From positions 2,170,001 to 2,234,000 of the forward strand of contig NZ_CP091092.1 of NCBI RefSeq assembly GCF_029633915.1: a stretch of DNA of 64,000 nucleotides, read 5' to 3'. Numbering within the stretch: the stretch's first letter is position 1; every line of letters begins with the position of its first letter. The stretch is from Methanomicrobium antiquum. Its GTDB lineage: Archaea; Halobacteriota; Methanomicrobia; Methanomicrobiales; Methanomicrobiaceae. The notes below the pieces were generated by a model, which searched no databases, was not told the origin of the DNA, and saw only the letters and a list, made by a program, of their open reading frames with translations. This document shows, piece by piece, positions 3,039-27,903 of this stretch. The position numbers and the translations under genes were made by a program.

Positions 3039-3177
3039 AAAGAAGGGAAAAATGATTATGAAAGTCCCTTCTTTTATTGGTAATTTCTGGTGTTTTGGGA
3101 CAATTTCATTTTTTTGTCCTCACTTTTATTTTTAAGTGGTCCTATAAACATTTTCTGTGACAAAACTCGTTACGTTT
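3039..3177 (-). repeat. Degenerate third copy of the secreted-protein leader/promoter region
   Basis: This stretch matches in order the divergent regions at 5527-5676 and 9957-10106. It has an AAAGAAGGG / CCCTTCTTT inverted repeat (3039-3047, 3066-3074), a variant of the following text, a TATA-like TGTTTATA on the minus strand (3143-3150) and the box CAAAACTCGTTACG (3161-3174). No secreted-protein gene follows it on the left, so it looks like an orphan leader left after deletion. Otherwise the 2873-3595 gap has only the MITE at 3201-3445 and AT-rich sequence. Confidence 0.5.
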
Positions 3178-4088: not shown

Positions 4089-5423
4089 TCAGGCATATGA
4101 TGCCACAACATTTCTGGTATTATATATTCTCAGCGCATTGTTATGGTAATAATTTCCATTGTAATCATTTGATGAATATTCATAACTTGTACTTCTTAAT
4201 ATTGGCGCCCATACAACTGACTGTGTTGTTGATCCCCAGTTCCACTGGTATGCCCTGTTATAATTTTCCTGATTTGGACCCTGCATTCCATCCTGATGAT
4301 CAGCATCAAAAAGGTGCCCTATTTCGTGCAGAGTTGTTACAGTCCTGTCATGAATAATTGCATCATATGGAGAAGGATCATCAGCCATCTGTACCCATGC
4401 GTACCTCCTATCTTTTAGAGTATCTGCATCATATCCCCACGTTGCACCTACACCGGAACCTGGATCAGTACAGTCATACCCCCCCAGATAAATAGCAATG
4501 TCTGCAGATTTTGAGTTCAGATAACTAACCGGAACATGATTAATAAATGTACCTAATGGATCTTGTATGAGATTCTGGGCATCGGCAGCAAGTTCACTTG
4601 CTTTGGATGTATCATATGTGGCAATCAGATGTACATTAATATCTGATCTTCCCAACTGCTGGTTTGCCTGAAAGATAATTTCTTCAGCTGTATTCTGCCA
4701 GTCAGGTTCGTCATAGATCCATTTTGCATCTGTCATAACAAGCACTCTCACATAAGTCTTGCTTTTTGATGCTTTTTGCTCTTCCTCTATTTTAGCCTCT
4801 TCGCTTCTAATTTTCAACTCCTCATCAGACATTATAGAATGTGCAAGATAATCTTCAATGCCGTAGAGATATTCTCCTTCGACTCTAAGATCACTAACCC
4901 TGTATTCAATCTCGTACCTGTTTCCTAATAGATCTTTATCAGAAAGACTCTCAATGCAGTATTCCTCTCCGTTTAATATAATACTTGCAATTAATCCACA
5001 ATCACTAATTGTCATTACAATTTTACTATTGTCAACATTTTTGAGGTGGCCGGAGTATGGAAGTGTTTTTGAATTTCCCCCTTTTTCTTCAACAATATAC
5101 TCCTCTAATATCATTGTGTACTTTTTGCCGTCAATAATAACCGGCAATTCACTTTTTTTTGAAAGTTCATCTCTAAATCCCAAAATGTCAAATGATACCA
5201 GACTATATCTTCCTGCCTTTTGCTGAAATTGCTGTAATTGTAAATCCTGTTTAATCTGACCGGCATCTGCTTTTTTTGTAAATCCTTCAAAACAAACCAA
5301 CGGAGTTGATAAATTTTCTTTTTCAGTCTCTTCTACAGCACTAACCGCCGGAACAAAAATTGCTCCGAGAAGTGCCATGACCATAAGCAGGCTCAAAGCC
5401 CGCATGCCTTTTTTCAGTTTCAT
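4089..5423 (-). CDS. Secreted metzincin-type zinc metalloprotease
   Basis: 444 residues. Sec signal peptide MRALSLLMVMALLGA...PAVSA, then a ~190-residue N-terminal region that resembles a propeptide, then a catalytic domain starting around YVRVLVMTDAKW. The zinc site is TTLHEIGHLFDADHQDG (about residues 365-381), which fits HExxHxxxxxH with Asp replacing the usual Gly at position 8; a Met (DGMQGPN) follows but its role as Met-turn is unproven. This resembles M12/reprolysin-like and M72 peptidases. Ribosome site GAGGAG 6 bases before ATG. Shares its signal peptide and leader DNA with the genes at 6884 and 8993. Acts outside the cell. Confidence 0.85.
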   Translation of the reverse strand: MKLKKGMRALSLLMVMALLGAIFVPAVSAVEETEKENLSTPLVCFEGFTKKADAGQIKQDLQLQQFQQKAGRYSLVSFDILGFRDELSKKSELPVIIDGKKYTMILEEYIVEEKGGNSKTLPYSGHLKNVDNSKIVMTISDCGLIASIILNGEEYCIESLSDKDLLGNRYEIEYRVSDLRVEGEYLYGIEDYLAHSIMSDEELKIRSEEAKIEEEQKASKSKTYVRVLVMTDAKWIYDEPDWQNTAEEIIFQANQQLGRSDINVHLIATYDTSKASELAADAQNLIQDPLGTFINHVPVSYLNSKSADIAIYLGGYDCTDPGSGVGATWGYDADTLKDRRYAWVQMADDPSPYDAIIHDRTVTTLHEIGHLFDADHQDGMQGPNQENYNRAYQWNWGSTTQSVVWAPILRSTSYEYSSNDYNGNYYHNNALRIYNTRNVVASYA

Positions 5424-5526
5424 TGTTTCTCCTCACTTTGCTTTAAAACCGGCATGCAAACCTTAATCTGCGATAATGCTGACATAGGAGATACCGGTTG
5501 TATCGCCGGTGAATGATTCAAAAGGA

Positions 5527-5565
5527 AAAGAAGGGGAATAGACTTGTCAAATCAGTCCCTTCTTT
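5527..5565 (-). promoter_or_regulatory. Leader hairpin of the protease gene
   Basis: Inverted repeat AAAGAAGGG (5527-5535) and CCCTTCTTT (5557-5565) with a 21-base loop. It lies in the presumed ~195-base untranslated leader, between the TATA box at ~5641-5648 (minus strand) and the ATG at 5423. The same hairpin recurs at 9957-9995 and 3039-3074. It could be an RNA control element or a processing site; function not visible. Confidence 0.45.
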
Positions 5566-5640
5566 CTCCTGAAATTTCACTGGATTCTTTTTTTGGACAA
5601 AACTCCCCTGAGCTGTCCACATTGATGTTTTTGTAATGAG

Positions 5641-5676
5641 AATATAAACTAATTCTGTGTCAAAACTCGTCACGTT
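5641..5676 (-). promoter_or_regulatory. TATA box plus TGACGAGTTTTG box for the leftward protease gene
   Basis: Read leftward: AACGTGACGAGTTTTG (5676-5661), 12 bases, then TTTATATT (5648-5641), a good archaeal TATA box. The box sits where an activator or the BRE contact would lie. The identical arrangement occurs at 10071-10106, and a variant at 3143-3174. The core TGACGAGTTTTG is also half of the palindrome before the rightward gene at 5979, so both directions may answer to one regulator. Confidence 0.5.
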
Positions 5677-5772
5677 GTTAGAAGATCGAACTTCCTTAAT
5701 ATATGGGTTAATTAAAAAAGGAATGGAAGATTATATCGTTGGTTTCAGTGAATTTCTGATGCTTTTTAGTAA

Positions 5773-5832
5773 TATTTATAATCTGTAAAGAATCCGGGGA
5801 GAATGACTGTGATACCATGATCCCCGGATTCT
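5773..5832 (+). promoter_or_regulatory. TATA box and perfect inverted repeat before the 21-codon small ORF
   Basis: A TATA-like ATTTATAAT is at 5774-5782. Right after it is AGAATCCGGGGA (5789-5800), whose exact reverse complement TCCCCGGATTCT lies at 5821-5832. The second arm overlaps codons 2-5 of the small ORF, and the loop holds its ribosome site GTGAT and ATG. The same 12 bp arms recur in the second copy (10222-10233 and 10254-10265 approximately). Either an operator or, if transcription starts upstream, an RNA hairpin hiding the start codon. Confidence 0.4.
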
Positions 5833-5882
5833 GCGGTATTTTCTCGAACAACCGCCTTCTTATGTTTAATGTCTGGTTATAA
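5817..5882 (+). CDS. Conserved 21-residue small protein or leader peptide, copy 1
   Basis: ATG at 5817, stop TAA at 5880-5882. The product begins MIPGFCGIFSNN and ends LLMFNVWL. A GTGAT ribosome site lies 5 bases upstream, inside the 14-base string CTGTGATACCATGA, which is also found exactly at the start of the gene at 5979. The second copy at 10250-10315 encodes the identical peptide, with one synonymous change (TCG to TCA). It precedes a palindromic operator and the secreted-protein gene, so a regulatory leader or a short secreted/signal peptide are both possible. Confidence 0.45.
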   Translation: MIPGFCGIFSNNRLLMFNVWL

Positions 5883-5895
5883 ATTTTTTCTATAT

Positions 5896-5940
5896 CAAAA
5901 CTCGTCAGGTAAAAAACGTGACGAGTTTTGTCATATAAAA
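5896..5940 (+). promoter_or_regulatory. Palindromic box and TATA box before the gene at 5979
   Basis: CAAAACTCGTCA (5896-5907) and its exact reverse complement TGACGAGTTTTG (5919-5930), spaced 11 bases, sit directly upstream of CATATAAAAAG (5932-5942), a TATA box about 40 bases before the ATG. Position immediately upstream of TATA/BRE suggests an activator site. In the second copy (10329-10363) the palindrome is intact but the TATA has become CATAGAAAAAG. Confidence 0.55.
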
Positions 5941-5978
5941 AGTATTAATGATTAATCTGAATTCTTATCTGTGATACC

Positions 5979-6146
5979 ATGAAGTATTACTGGTTAGTAT
6001 TATTATTTATTATCGGGGCGGCACTGACCGTTCCGGCAGTTTCTGCTAAGATAATTGAAGAAAAAGACGGGTATATCGTAACATCTGTGGATAATGCCTT
6101 TAATTTGTCTGACATTTTCATATTTCTCAGAGTCTATCTGAAATAA
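5979..6146 (+). pseudogene. Truncated small secreted protein gene (copy 1)
   Basis: ATG 5979 with GTGAT ribosome site. Signal peptide (MKYYWLVLLFIIGAAL...PAVSA) then KIIEEKDGYIVTSVDNAFNLSDIF, which matches the N-terminus of the gene split by the IS at 10438. After DIF the frame runs into foreign sequence and stops after 7 residues, because at ~6118 the DNA joins a fragment of a different gene on the other strand. The ~115-residue mature domain seen in copy 2 is lost, so this is a deletion remnant. Confidence 0.7.
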
Positions 6147-8992: not shown

Positions 8993-9850
8993 TTACTCCA
9001 TCTTGAATAAATAACCAATACCCGAAGCTCCAGTTGAAGGATAAGCATTGTTAAGATTAACATTATATTTGCTCTCTAAAGGTAAATTGTTACTTAAAAT
9101 AGAGCTATATAAATGATTTCTAGCTGTATCACAACTGTTTGAATACAAATAATGGTTCAAATCATCAGTGTCCCAATACTCATAATGACAGTTGCCAAAA
9201 CACCATGCACCTTCATTAGAATCAGTATAACCCTCAAATAAAACAAGATGATACCTTGAACCAAAGTAATCTCCATCTTGCAATTGTGCATATCCGTGTG
9301 CATCCGAACCTGCACTCTGCACCCATGACATTGTATTTTGGTCAGAACCCCTTATACTATACTCTGTCCAACCATATGCACGCTCCCAATCTCCGGTGTT
9401 TTTTAGTTCAGTCGCGATTTCTGATCTCTCACGATTATAAAAAATTACATTATTAGGTCCTTTTATATCATTTGTATTGGTTCCACCACTAATCCATTTC
9501 CAAATATAAACATTATCATTGTCTATTTGGACCATTTCTGTAGATTTTTGGCTTTTGACAGCATCAACCGAATTGATTCTGTTATACTCTTGCTCTATTA
9601 CTTTTTTGGCACTTGCTTCTCCTAGATTTTTAACCAAAAATTTATAATGAGCTTCATTCTCCTTATAAAATTCATCAATGTTATTGTTTGCATTAAAGGA
9701 ATCTTTTACAGAGTTCAAATTAAGCACAACTTCTTTTATATCTAAACTTTTTTCATTCTCTAACGCACTAACCGCCGGAACAAACATCGCTCCTAATAGT
9801 GCCATTACCAATAGCAGGCTTAAAGCCCGCATACCGTTTTTCAGTTTCAT
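8993..9850 (-). CDS. Secreted protein with W-C-x-G-x-C-H-Y-E motif, second copy
   Basis: 285 residues from the ATG at 9850, chosen over an in-frame upstream codon because GAGGT lies just before it and the signal peptide then starts as in its paralogues. Mature part shares with 6884-7765 the landmarks VYIWKWI, YFGSRYHLVLFEG, GAWCFGNCHYEYW and TARNHLYSSIL, but overall identity is modest. An extra Cys lies in SNSCDTARNH. First gene of an operon with two membrane proteins. Its upstream DNA is a near duplicate of the protease upstream region. Extracellular, function unknown. Confidence 0.72.
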   Translation of the reverse strand: MKLKNGMRALSLLLVMALLGAMFVPAVSALENEKSLDIKEVVLNLNSVKDSFNANNNIDEFYKENEAHYKFLVKNLGEASAKKVIEQEYNRINSVDAVKSQKSTEMVQIDNDNVYIWKWISGGTNTNDIKGPNNVIFYNRERSEIATELKNTGDWERAYGWTEYSIRGSDQNTMSWVQSAGSDAHGYAQLQDGDYFGSRYHLVLFEGYTDSNEGAWCFGNCHYEYWDTDDLNHYLYSNSCDTARNHLYSSILSNNLPLESKYNVNLNNAYPSTGASGIGYLFKME

Positions 9851-9956
9851 ATTTTTTACCTCGTTTAATTTCAAAAACCGGCATGCAAACCTTAATCTAC
9901 GATAATGCGTCTAAGATAAAATGCCAGTTGTATCGCCGGTGAATGATTCAAAAGGA

Positions 9957-10106
9957 AAAGAAGGGTAATAGACTTGTCAAATCAGTCCCTTCTTTCTCCT
10001 GAAATTTCACTGGATTCTCTTTTGGGACAAAACTCCCCTGAGCTGTCCATATTGATGTTTTTGTAATGAGAATATAAACTAATTCTGTGTCAAAACTCGT
10101 CACGTT
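9957..10106 (-). promoter_or_regulatory. Leader hairpin, TATA box and TGACGAGTTTTG box, second copy
   Basis: AAAGAAGGG (9957-9965) / CCCTTCTTT (9987-9995) hairpin, TATA on the minus strand at 10071-10078 and CAAAACTCGTCACGTT at 10091-10106. Near-identical in sequence and spacing to 5527-5676. Expected to drive the operon 9850 to 7947 leftward, again with a leader of about 200 bases. The whole 9851-10411 gap is a duplicate of 5424-5978. Confidence 0.5.
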
Positions 10107-10249
10107 ATCAGAAGATCGAACTTTCTTAATTTATGGGTTAATTTAAAAAAATGAAATTAAGGATTATATCTTTGGTTTTATTGAATTTCTGGTGCTTTTT
10201 AGTAATATTTATAATCTGTAAAGAATCCGGGGAGAATGACTGTGATACC

Positions 10250-10315
10250 ATGATCCCCGGATTCTGCGGTATTTTCTCAAACAACCGCCTTCTTATGTTT
10301 AATGTCTGGTTATAA
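10250..10315 (+). CDS. Conserved 21-residue small protein or leader peptide, copy 2
   Basis: ATG 10250, TAA 10313-10315. Encodes the same peptide as 5817-5882, with a TCA instead of TCG serine codon. The same ribosome site CTGTGATACC and the same flanking 12 bp inverted repeat are kept. The neighbouring non-coding DNA between the two copies has more differences, for example around 10140-10190, which is mild support for coding constraint. Confidence 0.45.
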   Translation: MIPGFCGIFSNNRLLMFNVWL

Positions 10316-10328
10316 ATTTTTTCTATGT

Positions 10329-10374
10329 CAAAACTCGTCAGGTAAAAAACGTGACGAGTTTTGTCATAGAAAAA
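10329..10374 (+). promoter_or_regulatory. Palindromic box before the split secreted gene, TATA altered
   Basis: CAAAACTCGTCA (10329-10340) and TGACGAGTTTTG (10352-10363) as in copy 1. The following TATA is CATAGAAAAAG rather than CATATAAAAAG, which probably weakens it. The decay fits with the gene downstream being broken by an IS. Confidence 0.45.
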
Positions 10375-10411
10375 GTATTAATGATTAATCTGAATGCTTA
10401 TCTGTGATACC

Positions 10412-10437
10412 ATGAAGTATTACTGGCTAGTATTATT
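10412..10437 (+). pseudogene. 5' fragment of small secreted protein gene cut by IS5-family element
   Basis: ATG 10412 followed by codons for KYYWLVLL, then the IS begins at 10438. Compared with the unbroken DNA at 5979-6010, the gene resumes at 11578 after the IS, with TATT duplicated. Reading into the IS gives a stop after about eleven more codons. Confidence 0.75.
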
Positions 10438-11577
10438 GAGGATAACTAAAATCCCTACATTTTCCCAATAATGTTTGTAAATGGATGGAATGATCTACAA
10501 AATACAAAATTCAATCTAAAATTTTCTCAATCTGGTCATTTTTTGTAATATTTTTCTATAGCTACAGCTAGAGGCTCATCATTGTTGCAATCCTTTTAGT
10601 CGATACAAATTGTAAGCCAAACACGAAAATAAATTCTTGACATGTACCCTTTTGGCCGTTGTTTGCAAAACATGACCTCCATGGAAAGTACGCTTAATCA
10701 CTGCATAAGGTAATTCAACCAAAGACCTAGTTCGGGATATTGCCCTGTTTCTCCGATTGTCTTTCTCTTTCAATGGGTTGTTTCTTGTTGCCCTTTTCAT
10801 AGTTTTATCCATTGAAGCCTTTGGCTTAACCCCAAAATATCCCTTATCGCGGTACACTGTCTCACCCTTTTTTGAAAGATCGATTTTACTATCATGAACA
10901 TTAGCAGGAGTTGTAGTAAATCGACGAATCATTAGATATTCCTTATCAATCAGAGTGTGAATTTTATAGCCAAAATATGATTTATTTCCCTTTTTACTCC
11001 ATTTTCCATCTTTTGACCTTCTTGTTTGGGCTTCCTCTCCTCGTGGTTTATCTTTCTTGGCATGACCTGGATCTGACGTAATAAATGAAGCATCCTGGAT
11101 AACTCCGCGAGTAATTGATATTCCCTTTTCTTCAATCTGTCTCTGTAATTCGTTCCAGATTTTATCTGAGATCTCAGCTGTTACTAATCTCTCTCTAAAA
11201 AACCAAATTGTCGAGTGATCTGGAATTTTTAATGGGTAGTTCAGAAAGTTTCGAAAAGAGATTCTATCGTTGGCTTGTCTTTCCAATTCGGGATCTGAAA
11301 GGCTATACCATTGTTGCAAAAGAAGCAATTTGAGCATCAATATTTCGTCGTAGTTGGGCCTTCCACCAAGTCCTGTTTTGTTCAGGAATAAAGGGTACAG
11401 GATTGGTCTAAAACATTCCCAGTCAATTATTTTTTCAACTTCACCTAACTTATCTCCTTTTGAGACAATCCGCGCATATTCATCTTTAAAAGCAAAATTA
11501 GCAAAGTTACTCATAATAATTCAGAGATCGGCGACTATAAAGTACTATCGGTAAGTGGGGGGTTTTTCGAAATTCTC
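10438..11577 (-). mobile_element. IS5-family insertion sequence, 1140 bp
   Basis: Boundaries come from comparison with the uninterrupted paralogue at 5979. Left flank ends at 10437 and right flank resumes at 11578, with a 4 bp direct repeat TATT (10434-10437, 11578-11581). Ends are imperfect inverted repeats, GAGGATAACTAAAATCCC on the left and GAGAATTTCGAAAAACCCC on the right (reverse complement). It holds one leftward transposase gene and looks intact. The insertion point is eight residues into the signal peptide of a secreted protein. Confidence 0.85.
10579..11514 (-). CDS. IS5-family transposase
   Basis: 311 residues, full length for the family. The N-terminal DUF772-like region (GGRPNYDEILMLKLLLLQQW ... 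PELERQANDRISFRNFLNY ... IPDHSTIWFFRERL) is diagnostic of the IS5 group. Catalytic DDE: Asp in QDASFITSD, Asp in VYRDKGYFG (YRDKGY motif) and the Glu in the LVELPYAVIKRTFH block. A basic KPRGEEAQTRRSKDGKWSKK stretch precedes GNKSYFGYKIHTLID. Uninterrupted, so probably active. Confidence 0.92.
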   Translation of the reverse strand: MSNFANFAFKDEYARIVSKGDKLGEVEKIIDWECFRPILYPLFLNKTGLGGRPNYDEILMLKLLLLQQWYSLSDPELERQANDRISFRNFLNYPLKIPDHSTIWFFRERLVTAEISDKIWNELQRQIEEKGISITRGVIQDASFITSDPGHAKKDKPRGEEAQTRRSKDGKWSKKGNKSYFGYKIHTLIDKEYLMIRRFTTTPANVHDSKIDLSKKGETVYRDKGYFGVKPKASMDKTMKRATRNNPLKEKDNRRNRAISRTRSLVELPYAVIKRTFHGGHVLQTTAKRVHVKNLFSCLAYNLYRLKGLQQ

Positions 11578-12005
11578 TATTATTTATTATCGGGGCGGCA
11601 CTGACCGTTCCGGCAGTTTCTGCTAAGATAATTGAAGAAAAAGATGGGTATATCATAACATCTGTGGATAATGCCTTTAATTTGCCTGATATTTTTAGAT
11701 CCGGTTCATCATCAGTCTCACAGGGTCAGACAAAATGGTACTCAACGTCAGTTCCTACCGGGAAAACTGCTTTTTATGCAGATTTGAACTGGGGCGATTC
11801 ATCAGATTCACTTGCTCTTACTGTTGTGGCTCCTGACAGAACATTTGGTCCGTATTATGATTCGGCAGACGGGCGAACAGACGGCCGGATTGATATAAAG
11901 ATTTCAAAATCCGGCGGGATTTCTTCCGGCACGTGGCGGTCAAAGGTATATGGATACAGTGTAAATGGTGGTCAGAGTTACACATATTCAGCATCTGCGA
12001 GATAG
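11578..12005 (+). pseudogene. 3' part of the IS-split small secreted protein (PPC-like domain)
   Basis: Continues the frame started at 10412: signal peptide end (FIIGAALTVPAVSA), KIIEEKDGYI, then a beta-rich domain with GQTKWYSTSV, ADLNWGDSSDSLALTVVAPD and TFGPYYDSADGRTDGRIDIKI, ending SYTYSASAR. This looks like a PPC-type pre-peptidase domain (LxWxxxxxxLxLxVxxP pattern) and resembles the C-terminal half of 26634-27197. An internal GTG at 11664 could start a signal-less product, but secretion would be lost. The regulator gene follows 24 bp later. Confidence 0.7.
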
Positions 12006-12029: not shown

Positions 12030-12833
12030 ATGATATATTTACAAATGAAAAGAATGATCAAATGCTCTTTGTTACTGGTCATTTTTGTTATATGTTCTTG
12101 TATTTATTGTTCAGCGGCTGCTCCATTTATTGATGATTACGTTGTTGAGCCTGTCACGCCTGATATGGATACCGGCACGCCTCTTGAAACTGTTCAGGTC
12201 GATTTCTGGGATCTTCCTCCGGGAATTATCCTGCTTGCATTTGCCCTTTCTTTATCGTCATTTCTTGGTCTCCCTCTTGAATTGATTTTATCTATTAAAC
12301 TTTGTCTTTATTTTGGATATCACAAACTATCAAAAAGCGAAGTTTTCTCTAATGATGCACGAGACCGGATTCATGACTGTATCAGGGAAAATCCCGGGAT
12401 TATTTTTTGTGATCTTGTCAGGATGACCGGAATAAACCGTGGATGTATCAGTTATCATCTCTTAATCCTAAAGCAGATGCATAAAATTACTGCTTTGGAA
12501 TCTTTTGGCAATCCGGGATACTTTGAAAATTCGGGAATGTATACTGAGGCTGAAAAAATTTTATTGAAGTATATCCGAAATGATAAACACTACAGGATTT
12601 TCAGGTTACTTATGAAAGAGCCAAATCTGAATCGAAATTCTCTTGGAAAACATCTTGGTATATCTCCATCAACAGTCAGCTGGCACATTAAAAGGCTATG
12701 TGATGAAAATTTAATTTTAAATAAAAAAACAGGTAGAACTGTTTTTTATGAGATAAACCCGGAAATCTACCAGTACCTGGAAAAATATATTGTACTAAAT
12801 GAGGATACAAAATCATCACTGACATCTGAGTAA
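12030..12833 (+). CDS. Membrane-tethered double winged-helix regulator
   Basis: 267 residues. N-terminal signal or first helix (KCSLLLVIFVICSCIYC), a ~45-residue outside segment, a second helix (GIILLAFALSLSSFLGLPLE), then cytoplasmic DNA-binding part with two winged helices: IHDCIRENPGIIFCDLVRMTGINRGCISYHL and IFRLLMKEPNLNRNSLGKHLGISPSTVSWHIKRL. Paralogue of 27172-27903. An ATG at 12045 is an alternative start. Preceded by the split secreted-protein gene, so the IS may have cut its normal transcription. Likely senses something at the cell surface and binds DNA directly. Confidence 0.78.
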   Translation: MIYLQMKRMIKCSLLLVIFVICSCIYCSAAAPFIDDYVVEPVTPDMDTGTPLETVQVDFWDLPPGIILLAFALSLSSFLGLPLELILSIKLCLYFGYHKLSKSEVFSNDARDRIHDCIRENPGIIFCDLVRMTGINRGCISYHLLILKQMHKITALESFGNPGYFENSGMYTEAEKILLKYIRNDKHYRIFRLLMKEPNLNRNSLGKHLGISPSTVSWHIKRLCDENLILNKKTGRTVFYEINPEIYQYLEKYIVLNEDTKSSLTSE

Positions 12834-27197: not shown

Positions 27198-27903
27198 AAT
27201 TAATTATCACAGTTTTAGAGTTGTTTATTTATTTCTTATTTTAATATCAATCATCGGCCTTTCTCAAATTGTTTCGGCTGAAAATCCGGATGATTACATA
27301 ATTACAGATTCAACCATACCTGGTGATTACATAGATTCATCAGGAAGTGATAATTTAAGAGATTACGCTGATTTACCAGTCTGGATAAAAATTTCTATGG
27401 TTTCCGGAGCAATAATCTCCGTCTTCTGTGCTTTAAAATACATCCCGGTTATTCTGGCAGGACAATCTCAGGCAAATAAGAAAGGAAACCGGGATAAAAT
27501 ATACGAATGCATATGTGCCAATCCGGGATTAATATCAGTAGAAATTAGTGAACTTACAAAAATTAACACGGGAACTGCAAGATATCACTTATATCTGCTA
27601 GAAAAAAACCATGAGATAGTATCAGTTAAAACAGGTCATAAAATTTTTTATTTTCAGAACAGATCTTTATTTACCAAAGAACAGATTGCGGGGATTATTC
27701 TCTGCCGCAATGAAACGACAAAAGAGATTCTTGATGTAATCAGAAAAAAGCCCGGTGCATCCAATAAGCTGATATCTGATATTGTCGGAATCGATAAAAG
27801 CACTGTTCACTGGCATATAAAGCGTCTTTTACGGGCAGGTATGGTTAAGATAAAAAGGAGGGGAAATTCTGTTAAATATTTTTTTGTGGAAGTTTTATCC
27901 TGA
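27172..27903 (+). CDS. Membrane-tethered double winged-helix regulator
   Basis: 243 residues; GGGGGAG lies just upstream of the ATG, inside the previous gene. N-terminal helix (YLFLILISIIGLSQIVSA), a ~55-residue outside part rich in Asp/Ser, a second helix (WIKISMVSGAIISVFCALKYI), then two winged helices: IYECICANPGLISVEISELTKINTGTARYHL and ILDVIRKKPGASNKLISDIVGIDKSTVHWHIKRL. Paralogue of 12030-12833. Overlap with the secreted-protein gene shows co-expression, which suggests the secreted domain may be what it senses. Candidate controller of the surface island. Confidence 0.8.
   Translation: MEQKNILSEINYHSFRVVYLFLILISIIGLSQIVSAENPDDYIITDSTIPGDYIDSSGSDNLRDYADLPVWIKISMVSGAIISVFCALKYIPVILAGQSQANKKGNRDKIYECICANPGLISVEISELTKINTGTARYHLYLLEKNHEIVSVKTGHKIFYFQNRSLFTKEQIAGIILCRNETTKEILDVIRKKPGASNKLISDIVGIDKSTVHWHIKRLLRAGMVKIKRRGNSVKYFFVEVLS

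Follow-up and report, generated by a model that had tools for sequence, protein, structure and literature searches.

An operator-like box upstream of secreted-protein genes in Methanomicrobium antiquum and its candidate membrane-anchored regulator

A short sequence box recurs directly upstream of TATA elements near secreted-protein genes of Methanomicrobium antiquum. This raises the question of whether the box is an operator and, if so, which protein binds it. The window analyzed here is the whole 64,000-nucleotide stretch of contig NZ_CP091092.1 (assembly GCF_029633915.1) from position 2,170,001 to 2,234,000, and positions refer to this window unless the genome is named. The original prediction held that five sites of one geometry serve a single activator controlling a secretome, and it named the winged-helix proteins at 12030, 13568, and 27172 as candidates. 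The explanation favored here, which we consider probable as a whole, is that the box is the operator of the regulator at 12030, which would activate secreted-protein genes, its own operon, and a small RNA (sRNA) that feeds back on the operon.

Box sites, promoters, and the duplicated segment

The candidate operator box AACGTGACGAGTTTTG is located on the minus strand at 5661–5676, ahead of the leftward gene of a secreted reprolysin-like metallopeptidase (4089–5423, minus strand) whose family matches are slightly below the Pfam cut-off. The TATA element TTTATA is at 5642–5647 (minus strand), 13 nucleotides past the box. A second candidate copy of AACGTGACGAGTTTTG (10091–10106, minus strand) precedes the gene of a secreted protein of unknown family (8993–9874, minus strand). 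Both genes are putative members of the regulon, and a search of genome contigs with the peptidase as query found no relatives. A variant of the box, AACGTAACGAGTTTTG, with one mismatch, lies at 3161–3176 (minus strand) with a TATA element at 12–13 nucleotides and a leader like those of the other boxes. The next ORF beyond this variant and its leader is a PadR-like gene (2155–2700) 455 nucleotides away, the variant also precedes an ABC transporter, and no secreted gene lies between. Every minus-strand box has a TATA element 12–13 nucleotides downstream.

Two further sites, at 5896–5930 and 10329–10363, are inverted pairs that occupy both strands and consist of CAAAACTCGTCA, 11 nucleotides, and TGACGAGTTTTG. 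They had been described as perfect palindromes. The 12-bp arms are indeed perfect, but an 11-bp spacer separates them. The left half is a separate leftward box with its own minus-strand TATA element at the usual spacing, at about 5877–5882 in copy 1 and about 10310–10315 in copy 2; these leftward elements had been overlooked. In copy 1, the left arm faces the promoter of a predicted leftward sRNA and the right arm faces the rightward operon. All five sites were found at the positions first given for them. The segments 5401–6004 and 9841–10437 are duplicates with 95% identity, however, so the five sites amount to about three independent ones; duplication accounts for two of the sites and does not account for the motif itself.

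Exact copies of the 12-mer TGACGAGTTTTG number six in the genome of 2,438,126 bases, each of them within the window. The original prediction called for a genome-wide scan, and the extended pattern TGACRARTTTTGWCAYA, with up to one mismatch, gave nine genome sites against none in a reversed control. When the 16-mer was searched with up to three mismatches, the close matches beyond the exact copies were the variant at 3161 and a site at genome position 1963135 (AACGTGACGAATTTTG), with one mismatch each, and weaker matches were no commoner than in the reversed control. The genome site, at about 1963130–1963135, is unlinked to those of the window and precedes a peptidase gene. Within the window, the core with two mismatches allowed matched 11 times against 6.4 expected, which is not clearly beyond chance. 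The significance of the box comes from its exactness, extension, and conservation. One full box of the same type at genome position 1166082–1166098 (L063; L059 at 10082) has a weak TATA element, is aimed antisense into the end of a neighboring gene, and has no ORF behind it.

Both rightward genes are located downstream of the inverted pairs, as first proposed, but both are broken. The first operon gene of copy 1 (MKYYWLVLLFIIGAALTVPAVSAKIIEEKDGYIV..., 5979–6123, plus strand) is truncated, and its match to copy 2 is lost after 6123. In copy 2, the first codons of the small secreted gene (10412–10437, plus strand) stand directly ahead of an IS5-family element at 10438–11577, whose transposase is at 10579–11514 on the minus strand. 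The match resumes with the remainder of the gene at 11578–12005 (plus strand), the gene being split at 10437/11578. The junctions of the element show a 4-bp overlap of the flanking matches (6001–6004) that resembles a target-site duplication. In this genome the IS5 element lies between the operon promoter and the regulator gene, and the regulatory circuit may therefore be broken here.

The leaders of most regulon genes open with a short hairpin, GGACA..TGTCC, which is varied and has paired changes across genomes. The leaders of this genome (5542–5630, 9972–10060, and 3061–3130) add a longer stem, AGAAGGG..CCCTTCTTTT. These hairpins are possibly a further RNA element.

A predicted small RNA from the inverted pair

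The sRNA predicted to arise from the left arm is about 70 nucleotides long and has two hairpins. Its two copies are at 5786–5856 and, in the duplicated segment, at 10219–10289 (both minus strand). The loop, AUGGUAUCAC, is antisense to the operon start. Both the start codon and the ribosome site of the small secreted gene fall within the putative target, TGTGATACCATGA, which is located at 5970–5982 in copy 1 and 10403–10415 in copy 2 (plus strand). Within this genome the 13-mer is confined to four places, the start of each operon copy and the loop of each sRNA copy, and it is therefore not a generic ribosome site. A T-rich stretch is present at the end of most copies of the RNA.

Of 232 genomes of the order, 11 had matches to a covariance model of the two-hairpin RNA (E 0.01). 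Strong matches were the two copies described above, G007, G019, G170 (at the L172 locus), and several each in G160 and G187. In all operon-linked copies the loop is antisense over 11–14 nucleotides to the operon start on the opposite strand, with GTGATACCATG always covered. The stems show G-C/A-U exchanges among copies, and a formal pair count over five related sequences contained only two double changes. No Rfam family matched the RNA at its gathering score. In a simple scan of duplex energies the operon start ranked no higher than other gene starts, and no duplex formed when the sRNA was cofolded with it. Orphan copies in Methanoregula-like genomes (L211, L212, L214, L215, and L205) keep the loop and have no adjoining operon. 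Retention of the loop away from a neighboring target suggests that the RNA may act in trans.

The candidate regulator and its box types

The candidate box binder is encoded at 12030–12833 (plus strand) and is referred to here as 12030. Its 267 residues comprise a signal or membrane segment at the N-terminus, an HTH_HVO_0163_N domain, and, at the C-terminus, a winged helix of the ArsR/HTH_24 type. HTH_24 and HTH_HVO_0163_N both score above their cut-offs in the same protein that carries the N-terminal hydrophobic helices, and NF033788 scores 64 bits against a cut-off of 55. The AlphaFold model has a pLDDT of about 90 across both winged helices and a low-confidence linker. Its Foldseek neighbors are ArsR-type repressors, among them CadC, SmtB, and NolR, aligned over about 90 residues, and the modeled protein thus has the predicted fold of an ArsR-type winged helix. 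A search for a virus link to 12030 found none.

In orthologs, the regulator gene forms a two-gene operon with the gene of a small secreted protein directly upstream. The AlphaFold model of the small protein has a pLDDT of 51 and is too poor for use. The secreted partner and the outer segment of the regulator have a common motif, (IIEEK)xGYIV (L173, L053), which is perhaps a ligand or interaction segment of both.

Close orthologs of 12030 (55–56% identity) exist in G007 and G019, which belong to a different genus of the same family. Both genomes keep the entire divergent region, including the leftward secreted gene with its box and TATA element, the hairpin, the inverted pair, the small secreted gene, and the regulator. 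The inverted pair there measures 23 nucleotides from arm to arm, and the left arm of G007 is degenerate. Two additional boxes in G019 are ahead of other secreted or membrane genes. One regulon gene of G007 (L053, 7246–8538) encodes a secreted transglutaminase-like protein (Pfam PF01841). Other relatives of 12030 were found at 60% in Methanoregula sp. fen_80, at 45% and 48% in two loci of Methanoregula sp. STB_131, and at 47% in an unclassified Methanomicrobiales MAG. The layout is kept in Methanoregula fen_80 and an unclassified Methanomicrobiales. Across genera it consists of the box, about 13 nucleotides, the TATA element, a long leader, and a secreted-protein gene, with an inverted pair before the two-gene operon.

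The boxes can be sorted into four types. Type A, TGACGAATTTTGnCACA, is found in this genome, G007, and G019. Type B, GTAAAYGATTGGRCCATAA, is found in G008, G021, G026, and others. Type C, GTTTGAGAGTTTACACA, belongs to Methanosarcina, and type D, GTnAAGTTTTGRCCGAC, belongs to Methanoregula. In all four types the TATA-like element mostly begins 12–13 nucleotides after the box, as scored with a lenient TATA filter. At least four lineages thus keep the geometry while using differing box sequences. In the family scan, convincing type A boxes were confined to the genomes with a close ortholog of 12030 (G000, G007, and G019). The box was absent from the other family genomes searched, and G013, which is of the genus of G007 and has no close ortholog, gave unrelated matches only. 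The exact palindrome is absent from relatives and present in this genome only, because the core reads GAATT elsewhere instead of GAGTT. For type B, G021 has 11 sites and G008 eight, with none in reversed controls and none in the genome of M. antiquum. At nearly all of these sites a gene whose product has a signal or membrane segment at its N-terminus follows within 60–210 nucleotides; in the rest of the window, by comparison, 16 of 44 ORFs encode such a segment. Because regulon genes and regulators alike are paralogous and frequently clustered, the site counts are not independent trials. In other genera, too, boxes precede secreted or membrane genes.

Box type can be compared with the recognition helix of the linked regulator. 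Type A-linked regulators have the helix (P/V)STVSW(R/H)(M/I)(K/R)RL, type B-linked regulators SGS(A/S)VTWQ(M/I)xRL, and type D-linked regulators SG(P/L)(L/M)VTWY(M/T)(K/R)RL. The relative at L175, with 45% overall identity to 12030, has the same helix and box as 12030, whereas that at L196, with 48%, has neither in common. Box type therefore goes with the recognition helix and not with overall relatedness. From this correlation, which is the best evidence at hand, we infer that the linked regulator binds the box.

The genome of M. antiquum encodes about 11 related regulators. At least four paralogous operons (L109, L111, L112, and L121) have inverted operators that differ from one another. Those of L109, L111, and L112 are long inverted repeats just before the operon, with none of 20 shuffles as good, while that of L121 is weaker. 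One of these boxes is also ahead of two peptidase genes. A loose superfamily pattern, searched in the same genome, gave chiefly chance matches apart from the paralog operons and the two peptidase promoters. A paralog of 12030, preceded by a small gene of its own, is encoded at 27283–27882 (G000f, L110), and no strong inverted operator was found for it. Given this set of regulators and operators, it seems that each related regulator has a regulon with its own box, and the proposal of one activator for the whole secretome is not supported in that form. Two of the three candidates, 13568 and 27172, have no link to the box. The gene of the third, 12030, belongs to the operon that follows the inverted pair, and the box type goes with the recognition helix of 12030.

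In the proposed mechanism, the N-terminal part of 12030 would sense something extracellular, perhaps together with the secreted partner, making it a membrane-tethered one-component regulator with the box as its operator. Its winged helices would bind the roughly 15-bp box TGACGA(A/G)TTTTGnCACA. Binding just upstream of the promoter core would activate the secreted-protein genes, the regulator's own operon, and the leftward sRNA. The sRNA would mask the ribosome site and start codon of the operon, limiting it by negative feedback. Binding, membrane sensing, activation, and feedback are each inferred from sequence.

Four other explanations bear on this proposal. The original prediction had itself allowed that the sites might be mere by-products of segmental duplication with no regulatory role, and the 95% identity of the two segments agrees with this. 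Orthologous sites in Methanoregula and other Methanomicrobiales speak against it, with boxes, spacing, and the inverted pair kept in place in other genera despite diverged flanks, as does the unlinked copy ahead of the peptidase gene; the explanation is scarcely credible. It is rather less improbable, though still quite unlikely, that another factor (for example, the cytoplasmic winged-helix protein 13568) binds the box and that the 12030 operon is simply one member of its regulon. The box and operon could travel together as one locus, but in types A, B, and D the box varies in step with the helix of the regulator linked to it, and paralogous operons within one genome have differing inverted operators.

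The strongest competitor, although an unlikely one, is that 12030 is the right protein and acts as a repressor relieved by an outside signal. ArsR-like winged helices in bacteria are mostly repressors, and the right arm is near an A-rich TATA-like stretch of the operon promoter. At the secreted genes, however, the box ends about 13 nucleotides upstream of the TATA element, outside the core promoter. Archaeal activators usually sit in this position, upstream of TATA, and the placement of the box suggests activation. The hairpin could also be read rightward, as a leader peptide or a ribosome-site decoy, since in this genome that strand has a ribosome site, an ATG, and a 21-codon frame. This mini-ORF was rejected; G007 has ATA in place of the ATG, and the frame lacks conservation. 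The promoter box, TATA element, and T-run are all leftward and the loop is kept in orphan copies, which makes the rightward reading very unlikely in comparison with a leftward antisense RNA.

Relation to known systems and significance

The closest published system to 12030 and its operon is the MM2440–MM2441 operon of Methanosarcina mazei, together with sRNA162/sRNA171 and MM2442. There, sRNA162 masks the ribosome site of MM2441, the ArsR-type regulator of the operon. It also overlaps the MM2442 leader, and the start site of MM2442 was mapped 184 nucleotides upstream of the start codon (PMC3510493). The same paper assigns MM2441 to methyltransferase control and reports deletion and overexpression strains (PMC3510493). 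One Methanosarcina genome in the present set has two copies of sRNA162 4.3 kb apart and, judged by this layout, is taken to be M. mazei or a close relative. Its MM2441-like protein is homologous to 12030 (BLASTP 30%, E 9e-31), and the gene just ahead of it encodes the MM2440-like protein, a member of the small secreted family found here that carries its motifs. The box GTTTGAGAGTTTACACA is present at L249 positions 2104, 3907, and 8251, 13 nucleotides from TATA, and is ahead of both MM2440 and MM2442. The published MM2442 start is about 25 nucleotides past the TATA element predicted from the box geometry. Inverted box pairs about 51 nucleotides apart are located at L249 3839–3923 and 8180–8271, near both sRNA162-type genes, and their left arms imply an unreported leftward promoter.

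MM2441 is a likely membrane-bound member of the 12030 family. Each of the two operons encodes a small secreted protein and a regulator that is membrane-anchored and has an ArsR-like double winged helix (30% identity between the regulators, same Pfam domains). They also have in common a secreted-type neighbor with a long leader, an sRNA that masks, or here would mask, a ribosome site of the operon, a duplicated locus with transposases, and a box 13 nucleotides from TATA before the operon and the neighbor. The RNAs differ. The published sRNA162 is 190 nucleotides long, differs in structure and location, and is directed at the second cistron (the regulator), whereas the RNA predicted here is about 70 nucleotides long, arises from the inverted pair, and matches the first cistron. 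Compared with the sRNA162 family RF02792, the two-hairpin RNA scored 18.1 bits against a gathering score of 78, on the other strand, and the family had no match in G000. The box and the membrane anchor are not described in the accessible part of PMC3510493.

Other systems have single features in common with 12030. Transmembrane regulators of the TTR class, which are enriched in Methanomicrobia (PMC10269533), ArnR of Sulfolobus, and ToxR/ToxS likewise place a DNA-binding domain and a membrane segment in one protein. An adjoining gene for an extracytoplasmic partner, as in the ToxR/ToxS co-component system, has its counterpart in the small secreted protein upstream in orthologs. These systems differ from 12030, whose DNA-binding part is double and located at the C-terminus, whose partner is small and secreted with a GYIV-like motif in common with it, and whose family has many regulator-operator pairs per genome. 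EarA of Methanococcus maripaludis is also an archaeal winged-helix activator that acts just upstream of the core promoter (BRE/TATA) of surface-protein genes, in its case the archaellum operon only, and no membrane anchor, inverted self-operator, or sRNA is noted for it in the accessible part of that report (PMC13286277). No description of the present operators or of the secreted-partner pairing was found in the literature.

A broader reading, to which we give an even chance, is that Methanomicrobiales and Methanosarcina have an expanded family of distinct membrane-tethered regulators, each with its operator, secreted partner, and clustered secretome. In one branch the regulator, acting at its own inverted operator, would drive sRNAs of a new class, which would block the start of the regulator's operon and could act in trans from orphan copies. 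Outside sensing and control of secretion are poorly known in archaea, and few membrane-tethered archaeal regulators have been studied. For this expanded family the locus offers a predicted binding site, a target set, and a helix-to-box correspondence. It also offers a candidate new family of sRNA, whose predicted target is precise, and connects with the M. mazei locus.
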